Source: Endomicrobiales bacterium
GTDB taxonomy: Bacteria; Elusimicrobiota; Endomicrobiia; Endomicrobiales; JAFGGC01
Length of the DNA: 64,000 nt
Direction of reading: 5' to 3'
Assembly: GCA_016930715.1 (NCBI GenBank)
Contig: JAFGGC010000001.1
Location: forward strand, 124,001-188,000
The notes beneath the pieces are model-generated. The model had not been told where the DNA came from. It saw nothing but the letters and a program-made list of their open reading frames with translations, and searched no databases. Positions within the stretch are counted from its first letter, which is position 1; each line of letters starts with the position of its first letter. A program made the translations under genes and the position numbers. Of the stretch, positions 2,791 through 10,525 are shown piece after piece.

Positions 2791-3105
2791 AACTAAAGAA
2801 TTGCACTATAAATATAAGCGCAAACCCGTCAATTGTCAATGCTTTTTTGGCTTTTATTTTTCGTCCTTTTGAATGATACGGCCGGATATCGAATTTTTAT
2901 GAAAATCCTGTGAAAAAATCGAAAAATCCGATTTTTTAAGCCGCGGGCAAAAGGACAGCAATCCCCCGTGAATGCCTTGAAATCGATTTTTGGATTGCTT
3001 TTTTGGATTTATCCCCTAAGGACGTCAATATTTTATGATTTTTCAGCGTTAAAGTCAATAGAGACGCGTGGTTTCGGCCCCTGGCGAACCGCAAAACAAA
3101 AAACA

Positions 3106-3134
3106 TTGAAAAAAAGCCAAAAAAATACTAAAAT
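3106..3134 (+). promoter_or_regulatory. Sigma-70-type promoter for the first PorV/NHL module
   Basis: TTGAAA at 3106-3111 and TAAAAT at 3129-3134 are separated by 17 nt. Transcription would start near 3141, about 40 nt before the TTG start at 3181. The remainder of the AT-rich spacer 2791-3105 shows no gene. Confidence 0.65.
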
Positions 3135-3180
3135 GACATTGCTGAAAACCCTTTTTCTTCTTCCTATATACGGAGGCATC

Positions 3181-4110
3181 TTGAAAAGACTCGCTCTTCC
3201 CACGATAGCGCTTCTCGCCTTCTTTTCTGTAAAACTCGCTTTCTGCGCCGGAACGACTTCCGCCAATTTCCTGAAGCTTGGCGTGGGCGCGAGAAACGCC
3301 GCGATGGGCGAGACCGGTGCCACCGAGATAGGCGTCAACGCCGCGTGGTGGAACCCGGCCGGGCTCACCAAGGTCGAGAGCACAGAGCTTTCCTTCATGA
3401 ATTCCTCCTGGTTCGGGGACGTGAAGTTCCAGACCCTGGGGTTTGCCCACAAGATGCGCTCCGGCACCCTCGGCATAACCGCAGGCGTGGTCTCGATGAC
3501 GCCGATAGACAAATACGACAACTCCGGCCTCAAGATGGACGAGACCTTCCAACCGCAGGACTCGCTTCTTGCCGTGTCCTACGCCAAGGAAATCGAGTCA
3601 ATGCCCGAGAACATACCGATGGGCCTTACCTTCAAGTACATCAGCTCAAGAATAGATGACGCGACGGCGGATTCGGTGGCCGTCGACTTCGGTTTTTTCA
3701 TCCACCCGCTTTTTTTCCCGTTCATCGAGGGCCTGAAGGCCGGCGTGGCAGTGCAGAACCTCGGAAAATCGATGAAATTCAACAAGAAGCTCTACCCCCT
3801 GCCGCTCAACATAAAGGTCGGCGCTTCTTTCCCGATACTGGCGAACACGATAATGGCCGCGGACATAAACAAATGCATAGACACGGACCCGGTGGCGAAC
3901 ATCGGTTTTGAACACTATATGCTGATCGGCGAGGAAGCATTGTTCTCGCCGAGGATCGGCTACAGGACAAACGTTAAAGGCATCGAAGACGCTAACGGCA
4001 TCAGCTTCGGCATAGGGCTCTCCTACAGGAGGATAGCCTTCGATTACGCCTTCGTCCCGTACGGAGAGCTTGACAACGTCAACAAGCTGTCGATATTGTT
4101 CTTCTTTTAA
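3181..4110 (+). CDS. PorV/PorQ-like outer-membrane beta-barrel protein, copy 1
   Basis: This 309-residue member of the PorV/UPF0164-like family is probably an outer-membrane barrel. I chose the TTG at 3181 over the track start at 2968. GGAGG lies 4 nt upstream, the product then opens with a clean signal peptide (MKRLALPTIALLAFFSVKLA), and the promoter at 3106-3134 lies downstream of 2968. The family hallmark after cleavage is visible: AGTTSANFLKLGVGARNAAMGE, then WWNPAGL. In the type IX secretion systems of Bacteroidota, PorV carries C-terminal-domain cargo to the cell surface. The gene directly downstream, 2 nt away, encodes exactly such a cargo-like protein. A close paralogue lies at 6595. 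Confidence 0.85.
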   Translation: MKRLALPTIALLAFFSVKLAFCAGTTSANFLKLGVGARNAAMGETGATEIGVNAAWWNPAGLTKVESTELSFMNSSWFGDVKFQTLGFAHKMRSGTLGITAGVVSMTPIDKYDNSGLKMDETFQPQDSLLAVSYAKEIESMPENIPMGLTFKYISSRIDDATADSVAVDFGFFIHPLFFPFIEGLKAGVAVQNLGKSMKFNKKLYPLPLNIKVGASFPILANTIMAADINKCIDTDPVANIGFEHYMLIGEEALFSPRIGYRTNVKGIEDANGISFGIGLSYRRIAFDYAFVPYGELDNVNKLSILFFF

Positions 4111-4112
4111 AA

Positions 4113-6530
4113 ATGAAAAAAACATTTTTAGGAATCACCGTAGCGCTCTCATCGGCTCTGCTTTTTTCGGCGCCGGCGCTTTATGCCGGAATCATCACCA
4201 AAAAGGCTAACCTGGTTCTCGGCCAGCCCAACTTCACGTCCAACTCCAGCGCCCTTTTGTCCGAGCCTTACGGCATAGCCGTCGACACCACGTCCGACAG
4301 GGTATATGTCTCGGACACTCTGCACGACAAAGTCTTCTGGTGGGATAACATAACACAGCTCACCAACGGCCAGCAGCCGTCGGGCTCCATAGGAAAGACC
4401 GCCCTGCCCCCCGACGAATACTCGCTCAGCGTCCCAAAGCACATACATTGCGACCAGTACCAGATACTGTGGGTCGCCGACTCCGACAACCACAGGGTTA
4501 TAATGTACAAGCCGCCTCTCTTAAACGGCGCGAGCGGTTACTACCTGCTTGGACAAACCCTATGGACCACGAGGGTGCGCGGATGCTCAGGTTTTTACAT
4601 AAACGGGCCTTCCGATTTTGTCGTTGACTACGCGAACTCAATGACATTTATGATGGATACCACCAACAGCAGGGGCATCACGCACAACAGGACCTTAGGG
4701 GCTAAAGATTATCCTCCCAAAAACGCCCGCACTTCGCCCATTTTCGGCCAGCCGGACCTTAACACCAATACACCAAACAACGGCAATACAAAAGGCATCG
4801 GTTATCCCCAGGGAGCCTGCCTTGACGCCTCAGGGAACCTGTTTATCGCCGACACTGGGGGGAACAGAGTGCTTTATTTCACGAGAGCCTCGTTCAGCAT
4901 CTGGGACTATGCCGAAGCATGGATAGGGCAGCCGCTCTCATATGTCAGGTCGCCGGACTGCACGCAAAATAAAATGGACGGCCCGACCAAACCCTTTATC
5001 GACGCGGACGGCGACCTCTGGGTCGCCGATACCGGCAACAACAGGATACTGAAGTTCGTCCCGCCCTTCGCAAGCGGCATGGACGCCTCCGAGGTTTTCG
5101 GCCAGCCGGACTACGACACGCCCAACAGCGGGCTCTCCCAGACCGAATTCAACACCCCCACCGACGTCCTCTTCGACCACCACGGCTACATGTGGGTAGT
5201 CGACAGCCTGAACAACAGGGTCTTGAGGTTCGACCCGCTGGCAATAAACTCGTTCACGCCGGACAGCGTCGAACAGGGCGCGGAAAAGTACCTCGTCGTA
5301 CAGGGGCAGGGCATACCGAGCACCGGAATGACGGTGACCCTTTCAAAAACCGGTGAAACGGACATACAGGGCACCATCACATCCGTTTCCAACGAAAATG
5401 AAATGACGGTGAAATTCGACATAGCGTCCGCCGCGACGGGGACCTGGGACGTGACGGTCCTGGGATACGGCACTACCCAGCAGTTCGCCAACGCGCTTGA
5501 GGTTTACGCCGCCGGCACCGGCCCTTCGTACAAGTTCTCGATATCTTCCGTCACGCCCGACTCCGGCCAGATAGGAAAAACCGTCAACCTCGCCATATCC
5601 GGCTCCGGATTCCTCAACGGAAGCCAGGTGAAGCTAACCAAGACCGGCAAGAGCGACATCCCGAGCTCGAAAAACACGTATTCCGCGGCTCAGATAGTAT
5701 CGACTTTCGACCTTTCGGACGCCTCAAGGGGCTACTGGAACGTATCGGTCAGCTCAAAAGGGTACACCGCCATCCTGTCAAACGGCTTCCTTGTCACCAC
5801 CACGAGCTCGACCGCCAAGGAAGTCAACATATACATGGAAAACACGATATCCTTCGTCACGGACATAATAGACGCCAGGCTCCTTCTTCCGGTAGGCACC
5901 TTCACCGAGAACGTGACATTGACGGTCTCCGAACCGCCGAGCATCCCCGAGATGAACCAGCGGGAGTTCATCCCGACCAATCTCGTGTTGATGATAACAC
6001 CTTCAAAAGACATACAGCCGCGAGCCGCTTTCCGTCTGACGATGATATACAACGACGCGGACGTGCCGGGGCTTGATAAATCCAAGCTCGTCATCTGCTA
6101 TTACGATCCGGCGAAATTGAAATGGCTTCAGGTACCCTCGACCTCGTACCCTTCGGAGAACAAGGTGGTGGGCGAAGTTTCGCACATCAGTATATTCCGG
6201 ATGGCACAGCGCGTGCCGGAAGCAACCTTAGAGAACGCCTACGTCTATCCCAACCCGTACAAGCCGGGCTCCGGGACGCAGTTCGAAAATTCAAGTTTAG
6301 GCGAGGGCGTGGTCTTTGCCGGGCTCTGCTCCGGCGCTAAAATAAGGATATACACCATATCGGGCGACTTCGTTAAGGAACTTGTGGACGAGGACGGCGA
6401 CGGCTTCTGCCTTTGGGACACCAAAAACAAGAACGGGCAGGACGCCGCCTCGGGCGTCTATGTTTACGTCATAACCAACACTGAAAGAACTTCGGACAAG
6501 ACAAAGGGCAGGTTCACGATAATTAAGTGA
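4113..6530 (+). CDS. Secreted NHL-propeller protein with IPT/TIG domains and C-terminal sorting domain, copy 1
   Basis: The 805-residue protein has a signal peptide (residues 1-25, ending ALYA). It then has an NHL-type beta-propeller (about 30-375) with repeats such as LWVADTGNNRILKF. Two IPT/TIG-like immunoglobulin domains follow (about 377-470 and 480-575), then a ZU5-like segment. The last 85 residues begin VYPNPYKPGSG and contain IRIYTISGDFVKEL and ASGVYVYVI. That tail is the FlgD-like/type-A sorting fold used by type IX secretion cargo. It probably acts on the cell surface in adhesion or ligand binding, with no enzymatic motif. It is translationally close to the PorV-like gene (2-nt gap). 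Confidence 0.85.
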   Translation: MKKTFLGITVALSSALLFSAPALYAGIITKKANLVLGQPNFTSNSSALLSEPYGIAVDTTSDRVYVSDTLHDKVFWWDNITQLTNGQQPSGSIGKTALPPDEYSLSVPKHIHCDQYQILWVADSDNHRVIMYKPPLLNGASGYYLLGQTLWTTRVRGCSGFYINGPSDFVVDYANSMTFMMDTTNSRGITHNRTLGAKDYPPKNARTSPIFGQPDLNTNTPNNGNTKGIGYPQGACLDASGNLFIADTGGNRVLYFTRASFSIWDYAEAWIGQPLSYVRSPDCTQNKMDGPTKPFIDADGDLWVADTGNNRILKFVPPFASGMDASEVFGQPDYDTPNSGLSQTEFNTPTDVLFDHHGYMWVVDSLNNRVLRFDPLAINSFTPDSVEQGAEKYLVVQGQGIPSTGMTVTLSKTGETDIQGTITSVSNENEMTVKFDIASAATGTWDVTVLGYGTTQQFANALEVYAAGTGPSYKFSISSVTPDSGQIGKTVNLAISGSGFLNGSQVKLTKTGKSDIPSSKNTYSAAQIVSTFDLSDASRGYWNVSVSSKGYTAILSNGFLVTTTSSTAKEVNIYMENTISFVTDIIDARLLLPVGTFTENVTLTVSEPPSIPEMNQREFIPTNLVLMITPSKDIQPRAAFRLTMIYNDADVPGLDKSKLVICYYDPAKLKWLQVPSTSYPSENKVVGEVSHISIFRMAQRVPEATLENAYVYPNPYKPGSGTQFENSSLGEGVVFAGLCSGAKIRIYTISGDFVKELVDEDGDGFCLWDTKNKNGQDAASGVYVYVITNTERTSDKTKGRFTIIK

Positions 6531-6594: not shown

Positions 6595-7536
6595 ATGACC
6601 AGACAGAAGAATGCTTTCATTTTATCGGCCATCATAGCGCTCTGCTGCCATTCGGCGGTTTTTGGAGGCGGCACGACTTCGGCCGATTTCTTGAAACTCG
6701 GCGCCGGCGCAAGAAACGGCGCGATGGGCGACACCGGCGCGGCTGATAATTCCGTCAACGCATCCTGGTGGAACCCGGCGGGCCTGACGCAGATACCCAA
6801 ATTCCAGTGCTCATTCATGTACTCCCCTCTTTTCGGAGGCGAGGCGGCCTTCCAGCACGCGGCGCTCGGCAAAAAATACGCTTTCGGCGCGTTCGCCCTG
6901 TCAGCGGGAATCTTGAGCGTGAAGCCGATAGACAAGTACGATAACACCGGCGCCAGGCTCGGCGAGACCTATGCCCCGCAGGACTCGGTTATAATGTTTT
7001 CCTTCGCCAAGGACGTCATAGACTACCGCGAAAGGATACCGGTCGGCATATCGGTGAAGTACGTTTCTTCCCAGCTTGACGACGTCTCCGCCGACACTTA
7101 CGCATTCGACATAGGGATGTTCGTCCACCCGGTACTCTTCCCGAACGTCCGGAACCTGAAAGTGGGCGTCGCGGTGCAGAACATAGGCAACGCGATGAAA
7201 TTCAAGAACAGGTCGTACCCTCTCTCGCAGATAACAAGGGCCGGAATGACCTACACCATACTCGGCAACTCGCTCATCGCGGCCGACGTTTACCAGTGCA
7301 CCGGCTCGGACGTTTCGTTCGGCTTCGGGTACGAATACTACACCCTCCTCGGCAGCATGATGCTCTTTTCGCCGAGGATCGGCTACAAACAGCAGGTGAC
7401 AGAAGCCGCCGACGCGCTCGGCGTCACACTCGGCTTCGGCTTGACGTACAACAGGTTAGTTTTCGATTACGCTTTCATACCGTACGGCGAACTCGAAACC
7501 GTTCACAAGATATCGGTGAAGTTCAGCATGTTTTAG
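6595..7536 (+). CDS. PorV/PorQ-like outer-membrane beta-barrel protein, copy 2
   Basis: This 313-residue paralogue of the 3181 product shares GTTSADFLKLGAGARNGAMGDTGA, WWNPAGLTQ, PIDKYDNTG and the C-terminal FDYAFIPYGELE block. It starts MTRQKNAFILSAIIALCCHSAVFG, a signal peptide. In copy 1 the cargo gene follows after 2 nt. Here 560 nt of repeats and a DUF559 gene intervene before the second NHL gene. It should have the same role, as an outer-membrane barrel that may shuttle its partner NHL protein. The stop codon abuts the first GTCCGCC hairpin. Confidence 0.85.
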   Translation: MTRQKNAFILSAIIALCCHSAVFGGGTTSADFLKLGAGARNGAMGDTGAADNSVNASWWNPAGLTQIPKFQCSFMYSPLFGGEAAFQHAALGKKYAFGAFALSAGILSVKPIDKYDNTGARLGETYAPQDSVIMFSFAKDVIDYRERIPVGISVKYVSSQLDDVSADTYAFDIGMFVHPVLFPNVRNLKVGVAVQNIGNAMKFKNRSYPLSQITRAGMTYTILGNSLIAADVYQCTGSDVSFGFGYEYYTLLGSMMLFSPRIGYKQQVTEAADALGVTLGFGLTYNRLVFDYAFIPYGELETVHKISVKFSMF

Positions 7537-7632
7537 TCCGCCAACGGTTCAGTGGCGGACTAACCCATCAAAGCCTCAGTGGCGGGTAATAAGTGACAGC
7601 AGGTCGACCCGCCGACGGTTCGGTGGCGGGTG
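7536..7632. repeat. Cluster of CCGCC...GGCGG hairpins
   Basis: GTCCGCC/GGCGGAC (7536-7542, 7554-7560) and ACCCGCC/GGCGGGT (7607-7613, 7625-7631) are two perfect 7-bp stems. Their loops are near-identical (AACGGTTCAGT and GACGGTTCGGT). A partial third copy (CCTCAGTGGCGGGT) lies between them at about 7574-7587. These are tandem dispersed palindromes, with no T-tract to suggest termination. Confidence 0.75.
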
Positions 7633-7650
7633 ATTAGCAGAATATTGATT

Positions 7651-7689
7651 CCCTCTCCCTAGATGGGAGAGGGCCAGGGTGAGGGTGAT
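7651..7689. repeat. CCCTCTCCC hairpin repeat, left flank of the DUF559 gene
   Basis: CCCTCTCCC and GGGAGAGGG (7651-7673) form a hairpin, followed by CCAGGGTGAGGGTGAT. Its reverse complement matches the repeat at 8026-8061, so the two bracket the nuclease gene as inverted copies. The end of this repeat supplies the Shine-Dalgarno-like GAGGGTG before the TTG start. Confidence 0.8.
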
Positions 7690-7691
7690 AC

Positions 7692-8102
7692 TTGAAGAGC
7701 AATCTAAGAGGACTTGCCAAAAATTTCAGAAAGAGTTCCACCAAAACAGAAAATTGTCTGTGGTTCTTAATAAAAAACAGACAATTGGAGGGAGTCAAAT
7801 TTCGCAGACAAGAACCGTTAGGCAGATATATAGTTGATTTTGTCAGTTACGATAAAAAGCTGATAATAGAACTGGATGGCGGACAACATACATTTAGCAG
7901 TGAACAAGATAAAAAAAGAGATGTATGGTTCAGAAAAAAAGGTTACGAAGTCCTGAGATTCTGGGACAACGAAGTATTAAAGAATAAAAACGGAGTATTG
8001 GAGATCATTCGCAAAAAGCTTCTAACCCCTCACCTAACCTCTCCCTCAAGGGGAGAGGAACAGATAGCTGGAAATAAGTCATTGATCTCGGAGCGAAAAT
8101 GA
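7692..8102 (+). CDS. DUF559/Vsr-like endonuclease-domain protein
   Basis: The 136-residue protein matches the DUF559 family (Vsr/very-short-patch-repair-like restriction-endonuclease fold). Family landmarks are the N-terminal TENCLWFLIKNRQLEGVKFRRQ, then YIVDFVSYDKKLIIELDGGQH with the catalytic-type D...E pattern, and KKGYEVLRFWDNEVL. The start is TTG. The C-terminal tail (TPHLTSPSRGEEQ) is the translation of the 8026-8061 repeat, so part of the protein comes from repeat DNA. Its TGA overlaps the next ATG (ATGA). It sits inside a module that is uninterrupted in the other copy, so I infer insertion. The true substrate is unknown. Confidence 0.85.
   Translation: MKSNLRGLAKNFRKSSTKTENCLWFLIKNRQLEGVKFRRQEPLGRYIVDFVSYDKKLIIELDGGQHTFSSEQDKKRDVWFRKKGYEVLRFWDNEVLKNKNGVLEIIRKKLLTPHLTSPSRGEEQIAGNKSLISERK
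8026..8061. repeat. CCCCTCACC...CTCTCCC hairpin repeat, right flank of the DUF559 gene
   Basis: CCTCTCCC TCAA GGGGAGAGG forms the hairpin, preceded by CCCCTCACCTAA. It is the inverted counterpart of 7651-7689. It is translated as the tail of the DUF559 protein. Confidence 0.8.
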
Positions 8103-10525
8103 AAAAATATTTTTTGACTTTATTCTTAATACTTATGGCGGCGGGCATAGCGAACGCCGGAATACAGACCAACAAGGCCAACAGGGCGCTTGGCCAGACC
8201 AGCCTCACTTCGAAACTGACGGGCTCCGCCATAACCCAGATGAACAAGCCGGAATACCTCCTTGTGGACAACGAGCGGGACAAGGTCTATGTGTCCGACA
8301 CTATGAACAACAGGGTGCTATGGTGGAACACGATTGACTCGTTCAACAACGGCACTTCAGCCGACGGGTACCTCGGCAACGTGAGCACCGGAACAGCAGC
8401 CGCGGCGTACAAGCTTTTTCAGCCAAGGGGCCTTTCGATAGACAAGGACGGCAACCTCTGGGTGGCGGATTCGGGTTACAACCGCGTCGTGCGTTTCAAT
8501 GCCCCACTGACCAACGGTGCGAGCGCTCAAATAGTCTTGGGGCAGGATAATTTTATTCAGGCAAATTATGAAGTAAACCAAAACTCAACACGAAAACCTT
8601 ACGCAGTTGCGGTCGACACCACGACCGAAATCGTCTGGGTGTGCGATACGAACAGTCACAGGATTCTAAAATTCCACGGCACTCTTTCTAACGGAATGAA
8701 CGCCACGCTGTTCATCGGACAGGCGACCCCCAACGCGGGCAACGCTAATGGAAATGCGACGCTGGGCCAAGTCAAGGCCAACTCGCTTAACCTTCCTTCT
8801 GACATAGTCGTTGACGTCAGCTCGAACATATGGGTGGCCGATTCAGGCAACCACCGCATACTGAGATTTGACGCCCCTTCATCGGGCGGCGCGGCGGAAT
8901 TGGCCGACCTCGTAATCGGGGCGACTAACTTCGTTCTGGGAAACCCCAATTTAGGCCAGGGCACCAACGGCTGTACCGCCGACAGCCTCTACACCCCGCT
9001 CGGGCTCTACATAGACACGCAGGAGAATTCTCTCTGGGTGGCCGACAGCATGAACAACAGGGTTCTCGGCTACGACCTGACCAACGCGACAAACTCAATC
9101 AGCGCCGCGGCGGTATTCGGTCAGAAGGACTATACCTCCCGTCTCGGCGGCGTCGGAGCTGAGAAATTCGACTACTGCAGCGACCTGGCCTTCGACAAGT
9201 CCGCCAACCTCTGGGTAGCCGACAAGAACAACAGCAGGGTAGTACGCTATGACTACATGAAAATAAGGTCCGTGACCCCCGACAGGGCAAGGGTCGGCAC
9301 CCAGAAGGACGTCACCATCATTGGCGAAGGGATGCCCGAAGACGCGACGATACTTCTCCTCAAGGAAGGCGAAGAATCCATCATATCAAGCAGCACCACC
9401 ATCACGAATGAAAGCGAGGCCGCATGCACGTTCGATTTCACAAACGCCGCCAAGGGCAAGTGGGATATCGGCATTTCATATAACGATTACGCCGAGGGGC
9501 TCGCCGAAGGGTTCGAGGTTTTCGGCCTCACGGTCTCGCAGGCGACGCCTAACAGCGCCTTCAACGGGCAGGTGAAGTACGTGGAGCTCACGGGTGACGG
9601 CTTCCTTGACGGAACGCTGGTCGCCTTCTCAAAAAGCGGGCAGAACAACCTCGTCGTCTCGACGCCGACGGTCGTCTCCGAAACAAGCCTCACCTGCACT
9701 ATCGACCTCGCGGGCGCCGCCACCGGCTGGTGGAACATAACTGTCACGAGCGGCACTGAAACATCGACCCTCACCGACGGCTTTTTTGTCGGGACGTCGA
9801 CGCACTCGTTCAAGAACATCTCGCTTTTCGGCTACACCGTCCTGAGCATCTTAAACAGCAGCGTTGAAGCCACTATATACATACCCACCGGCACCTTCCG
9901 CTCGCAGGTGGGCCTTGCGATGTACCTGCCGGAAGCCATACCGCCGGTGAGCCAGAGCGAGTTCATCGCCACACCGGCCGCGGTGGAGATACTGGCCGAT
10001 TCCAGCGCGCAGGCGACCGACGAATTCACCCTCACGCTAAAATACGCCGAATCGCTGATAGGATACCTCGACAAGACAAAGCTCGTGATATGCTACTACG
10101 ACGTCAACCGCGCCCGCTGGATACAGATACCGTCCGTTTCCTACCCCGAACTTAACACCGTTGTCGGCAAGATGAAACACCTGAGCATTTTCTGCGTGAT
10201 GCAGAGGTCCCCGGAGCGGAACCTCTCGAATATGATAGTCTTCCCCAACCCCTACAAGCCCGACTCGGGCACGGCCTACGACAACCCCGCGCTCGGCTAC
10301 GGCGTGGTTTTCTCGGGAATGACCTCAAGGGTCCGCATAAAGATATTCACGATTTCGGGAGAACTCGTGAGAGACGTTGAAGACACCGACGGCGACGGGA
10401 TGTATTTCTGGGACACGAAGAACTCGGACAACTACGAGGTCGCCTCCGGCGTCTACATATACATAGTGACCAACCTCGACAACTCCTCCGACAAGGTCAA
10501 GGGTAAGCTCGCGATAGTCAGGTAA
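8099..10525 (+). CDS. Secreted NHL-propeller protein with IPT/TIG domains and C-terminal sorting domain, copy 2
   Basis: This 808-residue paralogue of the 4113 product has the same domain order. A signal peptide (ending ANA) comes first, then an NHL propeller to about residue 385 with LWVADSGYNRVVRF and similar repeats. Two IPT/TIG-like domains and a ZU5-like segment follow. The C-terminal sorting domain begins VFPNPYKPDSGTAYDN and ends DKVKGKLAIVR. The start overlaps the stop of the inserted DUF559 gene. It is a cell-surface protein of unknown ligand, expected to be exported with help from its neighbouring PorV-like protein. Confidence 0.85.
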   Translation: MKKYFLTLFLILMAAGIANAGIQTNKANRALGQTSLTSKLTGSAITQMNKPEYLLVDNERDKVYVSDTMNNRVLWWNTIDSFNNGTSADGYLGNVSTGTAAAAYKLFQPRGLSIDKDGNLWVADSGYNRVVRFNAPLTNGASAQIVLGQDNFIQANYEVNQNSTRKPYAVAVDTTTEIVWVCDTNSHRILKFHGTLSNGMNATLFIGQATPNAGNANGNATLGQVKANSLNLPSDIVVDVSSNIWVADSGNHRILRFDAPSSGGAAELADLVIGATNFVLGNPNLGQGTNGCTADSLYTPLGLYIDTQENSLWVADSMNNRVLGYDLTNATNSISAAAVFGQKDYTSRLGGVGAEKFDYCSDLAFDKSANLWVADKNNSRVVRYDYMKIRSVTPDRARVGTQKDVTIIGEGMPEDATILLLKEGEESIISSSTTITNESEAACTFDFTNAAKGKWDIGISYNDYAEGLAEGFEVFGLTVSQATPNSAFNGQVKYVELTGDGFLDGTLVAFSKSGQNNLVVSTPTVVSETSLTCTIDLAGAATGWWNITVTSGTETSTLTDGFFVGTSTHSFKNISLFGYTVLSILNSSVEATIYIPTGTFRSQVGLAMYLPEAIPPVSQSEFIATPAAVEILADSSAQATDEFTLTLKYAESLIGYLDKTKLVICYYDVNRARWIQIPSVSYPELNTVVGKMKHLSIFCVMQRSPERNLSNMIVFPNPYKPDSGTAYDNPALGYGVVFSGMTSRVRIKIFTISGELVRDVEDTDGDGMYFWDTKNSDNYEVASGVYIYIVTNLDNSSDKVKGKLAIVR

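Follow-up and report, generated by a model that had tools for sequence, protein, structure and literature searches.

DUF559 nuclease genes flanked by inverted hairpin repeats suggest a widespread mobile unit in bacteria

A DUF559 gene between inverted hairpin repeats

The window, by which we mean the whole 64-kb stretch of an Endomicrobiales genome that was analyzed, carries a gene for a DUF559 (PF04480) Vsr/EDxHD-like nuclease at positions 7692 to 8102 of the plus strand, with a TTG start, a stop at 8102, and a product of 136 aa. The left hairpin, CCCTCTCCC-TAGAT-GGGAGAGGG, was located by sequence, pattern search, and folding at 7651 to 7673 on the plus strand and is followed, after a type-B-like CCA spacer, by the tail GGGTGAGGG (7677 to 7685, plus strand), which is a third copy of the right arm and is directed into the gene. 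The right hairpin, CCTCTCCC-CTTGA-GGGAGAGG, lies at 8038 to 8058 on the minus strand; its tail, GGTGAGGGG (8026 to 8034, minus strand), has a type A spacer, TTA, is likewise directed into the gene, and codes for part of the protein tail. A preliminary description of this DNA had reported that the DUF559 gene sits between opposed copies of a repeat and that one copy encodes the end of the protein. Both observations hold: the two ends span 7651 to 7685 and 8026 to 8058, the protein matches PF04480 with an E value of 1.5e-38, and the C-terminal end ...LLTPHLTSPSRGEEQ is coded by the downstream repeat copy. The hairpin pattern has exactly two matches in the window, which are the two ends of the unit, compared with 0.00 expected from 100 dinucleotide shuffles. 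The source genome contains 10 sites for this pattern and none for a reversed control pattern. When folded as single strands, the window hairpins give z values of -2.5 to -3.1.

The unit is located between two host genes on the plus strand, a paralog of the PorV-like protein at 2968 to 4110 (6595 to 7536) and an NHL-repeat protein gene (8099 to 10525) that is a paralog of 4113 to 6530. The flanking pair is 562 nt apart at the unit (7536 to 8099), whereas only 2 nt (4111 to 4112) separate the paralogous pair at its "empty" junction (stop at 4110, ATG at 4113), and therefore approximately 560 nt have been added at the unit locus. The insertion is thus visible by internal comparison, as first proposed, but the DUF559 unit is just a part of the extra sequence, because other palindromes occupy 7538 to 7637. 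These are three related palindromes of the CCGCCAACGGTTCAGTGGCGG type, an unrelated hairpin family immediately 5′ of the unit. An Rfam search at the unit returned no family, giving only sub-threshold NsiR4 and STnc40 matches, the former overlapping the first of the three palindromes. At its other boundary, the DUF559 stop overlaps the start of the next gene in the sequence ATGA (8099 to 8102). A 4-nt overlap of this kind (ATGA, GTGA, or TTGA) was observed at 36/125 DUF559 loci, including L014, L018, L093, L094, L099, L118, and L120, which suggests translational coupling or a preferred insertion register.

DUF559 proteins as predicted single-domain endonucleases

The window protein aligns with model positions 3 to 108 of the 109 in PF04480 at 131.4 bits (cutoff, 20.6), and the Pfam search otherwise yielded only a sub-threshold match to MTES_1575. 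In an alignment of 129 DUF559 domains, D49, E60, D73, and R76 are invariant and H66 and E20 almost so. A profile search of solved structures placed the Neisseria "endonuclease-like protein" 3HRL first (E = 5e-38), followed by the EDxHD homing endonuclease I-Bth0305I (3R3P; E = 1.5e-4); the remaining PDB matches, with E values above 0.2, were dismissed as chance. On these matches, DUF559 is predicted to be a single-domain Vsr/EDxHD-type endonuclease with conserved nuclease-type residues, whose equivalence to those of I-Bth0305I is putative. Two other assignments were considered and rejected. The protein is not a RAYT/HUH enzyme, given its Pfam family (PF04480) and its conserved E, D, E, H, D, and R residues, and membership in an anti-phage defense system was discarded because the PADLOC matches are short and partial (e.g., DpdF positions 84 to 166 of 1078). 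The literature searched yielded no experimental function for either 3HRL or the Escherichia coli family member YcjD.

One family member, Caulobacter VsrA, has been read as a mismatch-repair enzyme: it triggers the SOS response without a cytosine methylase, and its predicted fold is Vsr-like (PMC12907096). DUF559 might accordingly be a host DNA repair nuclease, acting either in Vsr-like very short patch repair or on hairpin or triplex lesions, that lies near repeats because it has been selected to act there, and the finding of some units within or next to genes for methylases or restriction enzymes would agree with such a role. The curated Vsr model TIGR00632, however, does not match the window protein, and its best match, to a Dyella protein, has an E value of 0.093 (13 bits against a cutoff of 97.85). 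A repair nuclease would also have no need for inverted ends, for the up to 10 DUF559 copies found per genome, for tandem copies, or for in-frame insertion into other genes, and we regard this explanation as very improbable.

The repeat corresponds to PIT/TMECO

The window repeat matches the PIT/TMECO intrastrand-triplex motif described in E. coli and over 260 genomes (PMC4666352). TMECO repeats have type A (TTA) or type B (CCG) spacers, and A/B pairs are inverted (PMC4666352); the window repeat fits this layout, with a C-arm, a G-arm, and a third G-rich arm and with the spacers CCA (near type B) and TTA (type A). Enterobacter 638 contains 100 copies of the repeat, and the genome paper proposed a termination role for the sequence CCCTCTCCCxx(x)GGGAGAGGG (PMC2869309). 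If the hairpins were ordinary transcription terminators or regulatory hairpins, their clustering around DUF559 would be incidental, an explanation that hardly merits credence. The hairpins flank the gene on both sides, inverted and with a conserved extra tail, and their 25-fold local enrichment (see below) is not what incidental clustering would give. PIT motifs had neither terminator nor promoter activity in earlier work, as that work is cited by PMC4666352. Moreover, copies that are translated in frame occur inside genes, and these already contradict a terminator reading. The repeat itself is known as PIT/TMECO, and its link with DUF559 is apparently new: no literature connecting the two was found by a search that left most subscription papers and preprints outside its scope, so that a prior description is possible.

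DUF559 genes and hairpin repeats are associated across bacteria

Among the six nearest relatives of the window protein in GTDB contigs, three (from Comamonadaceae, Muproteobacteria, and Dyella) share the hairpin of the window unit, with an identical inverted layout, and related hairpins occur at the locus of a WOR-3 relative. Across 249 Pseudomonadota genomes, at least three hairpins were present in 50/62 genomes with strong DUF559 matches, compared to 13/187 without. The corresponding odds ratio for co-occurrence in a genome is 56 (Fisher p 9e-29, in a calculation that ignores phylogeny). The hairpins are also concentrated at the gene itself. Exact canonical hairpins occur at 1.28 per kb within 200 bp of it and at 0.05 per kb beyond 400 bp, so that the density adjoining the gene is approximately 25 times that at 400 bp or more (113 versus 19 sites; p 4e-61).

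In other lineages, DUF559 is surrounded by other hairpins, including CCCCCTTT-AAAGGGGG, CCCCTCTTT-AAAGAGGGG, CTCCCCC-GGGGGAG, CCTCCCCC-GGGGGAGG, and more. Terminal inverted repeats were therefore examined independently of any motif, with a score of at least 30 taken as a pass and shifted windows as controls. The threshold was passed by 69% of 113 DUF559 loci and by 0/110 control windows (p 2e-20), and the two ends of a locus match each other better than they match ends from other loci (p 9e-17). In an enlarged set of 128 loci, 87 passed the threshold and 41 fell below it. Over these 128 loci, the similarity of the ends follows the similarity of the DUF559 proteins (Mantel r 0.26, with 0/2000 permutations as high, ignoring genome phylogeny); matching of paralogs to repeats within genomes was not significant (r 0.22, p 0.28, 27 pairs). 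Of the tails with an assignable direction, 68 face the gene and 30 face away from it, the Deinococcus and Synechocystis units being among those with outward tails. The type of repeat therefore varies by lineage, while the inverted layout persists. Three loci (L014, L099, and L120) have differing hairpin types 5′ of what seems to be one thiolase gene, where either the repeats have been swapped in place or the site has been struck repeatedly.

The preliminary description had proposed a genome-wide search for co-occurrence, and the association it anticipated is strong and extends across phyla. It had tied the association to a single CCCTCTCCC repeat; the association stands but is broader, since the hairpins of other lineages flank the same gene. 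It had also named two observations that would speak against its proposal. A lack of association was not found, and relatives that keep the gene without the repeats were encountered at a minority of loci.

The 13 Pseudomonadota genomes with at least three hairpins but no strong DUF559 include ten with at least five and two with over 100. Four genomes in this category (G204, G225, G118, and G263) contain 35 to 111 hairpins, which could be orphan repeats or could have another mobilizer. The reversed control pattern matches G118 and G263 12 to 15 times, and part of their hairpin count is therefore background.

Occupied and empty sites in Dyella and E. coli

Presence and absence of the unit at orthologous sites are observed in Dyella. 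A unit is located between hppD and hmgA, and three congeners lack it, having intergenic regions of 12 to 17 bp. Among 58 family members, the full unit is present at this site in 8 and absent from many. Because it is common to seven other family genomes, loss is possible as well as gain, and this family-wide distribution weakens the site as proof of recent gain. Dyella additionally contains three tandem units, 501 bp apart, and two gene-less, two-ended copies. One of the gene-less copies is inserted in frame within an ArgE-like gene (GFLKAFPPLPPGEGRGEGSGEAGITGDTEPSPQPLSRGERGYAYDA) that is uninterrupted in congeners, with the DNA sequence GFLGNEARDYDA; at this site the empty state is clearly ancestral. 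Approximately 15 bp were replaced by this insertion, with no visible target duplication. Target-site duplications of the kind made by DDE-type insertion sequences were likewise not visible at the Dyella and E. coli empty sites as a whole, which are diverged or altered.

In E. coli, a gene-less pair between hrpB and mrcB occurs as four alleles: present, absent (ST131), reduced to one hairpin (UTAK-12), and inverted (KY204). The inversion in JNEC-KY204 includes the spacer (L234 versus L056). A single hairpin is also left between alx and sstT in strain H22. The region between sapF and fabI contains ycjD in K-12 and an RND/MFS efflux operon in strains without ycjD (L169 and L173 versus L171). We rejected ycjD as a clean empty-site case, since occupation of the same site by the operon indicates replacement rather than simple insertion.

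These alleles bear on the possibility that the repeats were moved by another agent (a transposase, replication slippage, or recombination) and that DUF559 is a passenger caught between two copies. The inversion and the single-hairpin deletions can come from recombination, and both the E. coli strains that lack ycjD at sapF-fabI and the repeat-rich genomes without strong DUF559 are compatible with such an agent. Capture, however, would not place members of a single gene family within hairpins that differ from lineage to lineage across many phyla, nor would it make the ends track protein relatedness, and Holder et al. saw no mobility genes in the vicinity of the PIT/TMECO repeat (PMC4666352). 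We consider the passenger explanation unlikely.

Units within genes and operons

Whole units are present in frame in HsdM twice, at different positions and in unrelated lineages, in an adenine methylase, and, in a further case, at the end of an HsdR open reading frame that is truncated (L084, L240, L244, and L237). Some very long "fused" open reading frames in GC-rich genomes (L079, L127, and L151) apparently reflect spurious read-through and were excluded from the fusions. On plasmids, units are located in Deinococcus paa and hpa operons and in cyanobacterial restriction/BREX-like modules. Two Deinococcus loci with outward tails, L178 and L179, have inverted repeats that continue beyond the hairpins into TTCGCTTTG... 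and GCCAGCGTTGCTG..., which would fit an inverse duplication of flanking sequence. Carriage by phages was rejected as the main vehicle, with four weak records only.

The location of units within conserved genes such as HsdM, the replacement of ∼15 bp without target duplication, and the relation to I-Bth0305I, including the E..D..H..D pattern, would all suit a free-standing homing endonuclease. Such an enzyme would cut allelic sites that are unoccupied and spread in no other way, and the hairpins would be remnants or would belong to the target. Dispersed sites and gene-less derivatives are nevertheless numerous within one genome, which is atypical of allelic homing, and the ends are conserved where the targets vary. 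Homing as the only activity is therefore improbable, somewhat more so than passenger capture.

A proposed mobile element

We favor the reading, with a probability of roughly 60%, that the unit at 7651 to 8058 represents a copy of a mobile element that is widespread, consists of a DUF559 nuclease gene and inverted hairpin-plus-tail ends, and is mobilized by the nuclease. The anatomy of the unit, its association with hairpins, the lineage-specific ends, the presence/absence alleles, the in-frame insertions, and the conserved nuclease-type residues are observed. In the mechanism that we propose, the nuclease would drive the movement, with the hairpin as its likely substrate and repair as the probable route. 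The nuclease would recognize the hairpin ends, probably when these are extruded or single stranded during replication or repair, and would nick at or near them or at the target. Repair or strand annealing could then copy into the break either the whole unit or a pair of ends that lacks the gene, without duplicating the target, a route that can be likened to the action of a homing endonuclease or of RAYT/TnpA_REP. Its nonautonomous derivatives and remnants would be the two-ended copies without the gene, which are REPIN/MITE-like, and the single hairpins.

A broader proposal, for and against which we find the balance about even, is that DUF559 units form a distinct class of bacterial transposable element, in which a stand-alone Vsr/EDxHD-type nuclease uses hairpin (triplex-forming) ends to mobilize itself as well as derivatives without the gene, with some insertions in frame within genes. 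Many of the orphan G-rich palindromic repeats, namely, E. coli TMECO/PIT and the lineage-specific hairpins around DUF559 in other phyla, would then be explained by this class. The DUF559 family is common and has no accepted function, and the CCCTCTCCC/TMECO repeats, which are widespread, have no explanation so far; the link gives both a testable role and would add an enzyme fold hitherto not known to move dispersed repeats. E. coli K-12, with ycjD and its repeats, is a ready test bed. The in-frame units in restriction-modification genes suggest a route for adding peptides and domains to proteins. Taken together, the occurrence of the DUF559-repeat package across many phyla suggests a widespread, apparently undescribed mobile unit, to which common orphan repeats, the E. 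coli "triplex" repeats among them, may owe their existence.

Comparison with known systems

The unit shares with PIT/TMECO the GGGAGAGGG hairpin and GGGTGAGGG tail, the type A TTA and type B CC-purine spacers, and the inverted A/B pairs; it differs in that no mobility gene was reported for PIT/TMECO (PMC4666352), whereas here the motif forms the end of a nuclease-bearing unit. I-Bth0305I belongs to the described EDxHD homing endonuclease family (PMC3943268) and is alike in its profile match, in the putatively equivalent, near-invariant residues E20, D49, H66, and D73, and in being a mobile gene that encodes only a nuclease. DUF559, in contrast, consists of one domain (∼105 aa) and lacks the extended DNA-binding region of I-Bth0305I (PMC3943268); its unit lies outside introns and is bounded by hairpins. 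The PF04480 family also includes E. coli YcjD and Neisseria 3HRL; the window copy has two intact ends, whereas ycjD is flanked by one degenerate and one full TMECO-like hairpin. Rickettsia palindromic elements (RPE) and bacterial MITEs, compared by description only, are also short palindromic elements found in frame in protein genes, and the review consulted mentions no DUF559 partner.

The closest parallel in working style is that of RAYT (TnpA_REP) with REPs and REPINs, where an enzyme gene also lies between inverted palindromic repeats, gene-less inverted pairs are dispersed, and repeats are lineage specific. The enzyme of the DUF559 unit is PF04480 rather than an HUH Y1 tyrosine transposase, its hairpins have a G-rich third arm, and in-frame intragenic copies occur. 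The GTAG or CGTC tag of REPs is absent beside both window copies, where the tail is GGGTGAGGG. The initial suggestion that nuclease and repeat spread together like RAYT and REP thus finds its counterpart in the enzyme gene within an inverted pair and in the dispersed gene-less pairs; it is tempered by the lack of visible target duplication and by the 13 repeat-containing genomes without strong DUF559, and spread by the enzyme would be the inferred part of the analogy. By membership, the DUF559 unit is not a RAYT-REPIN system, but it resembles one in the way it appears to work.
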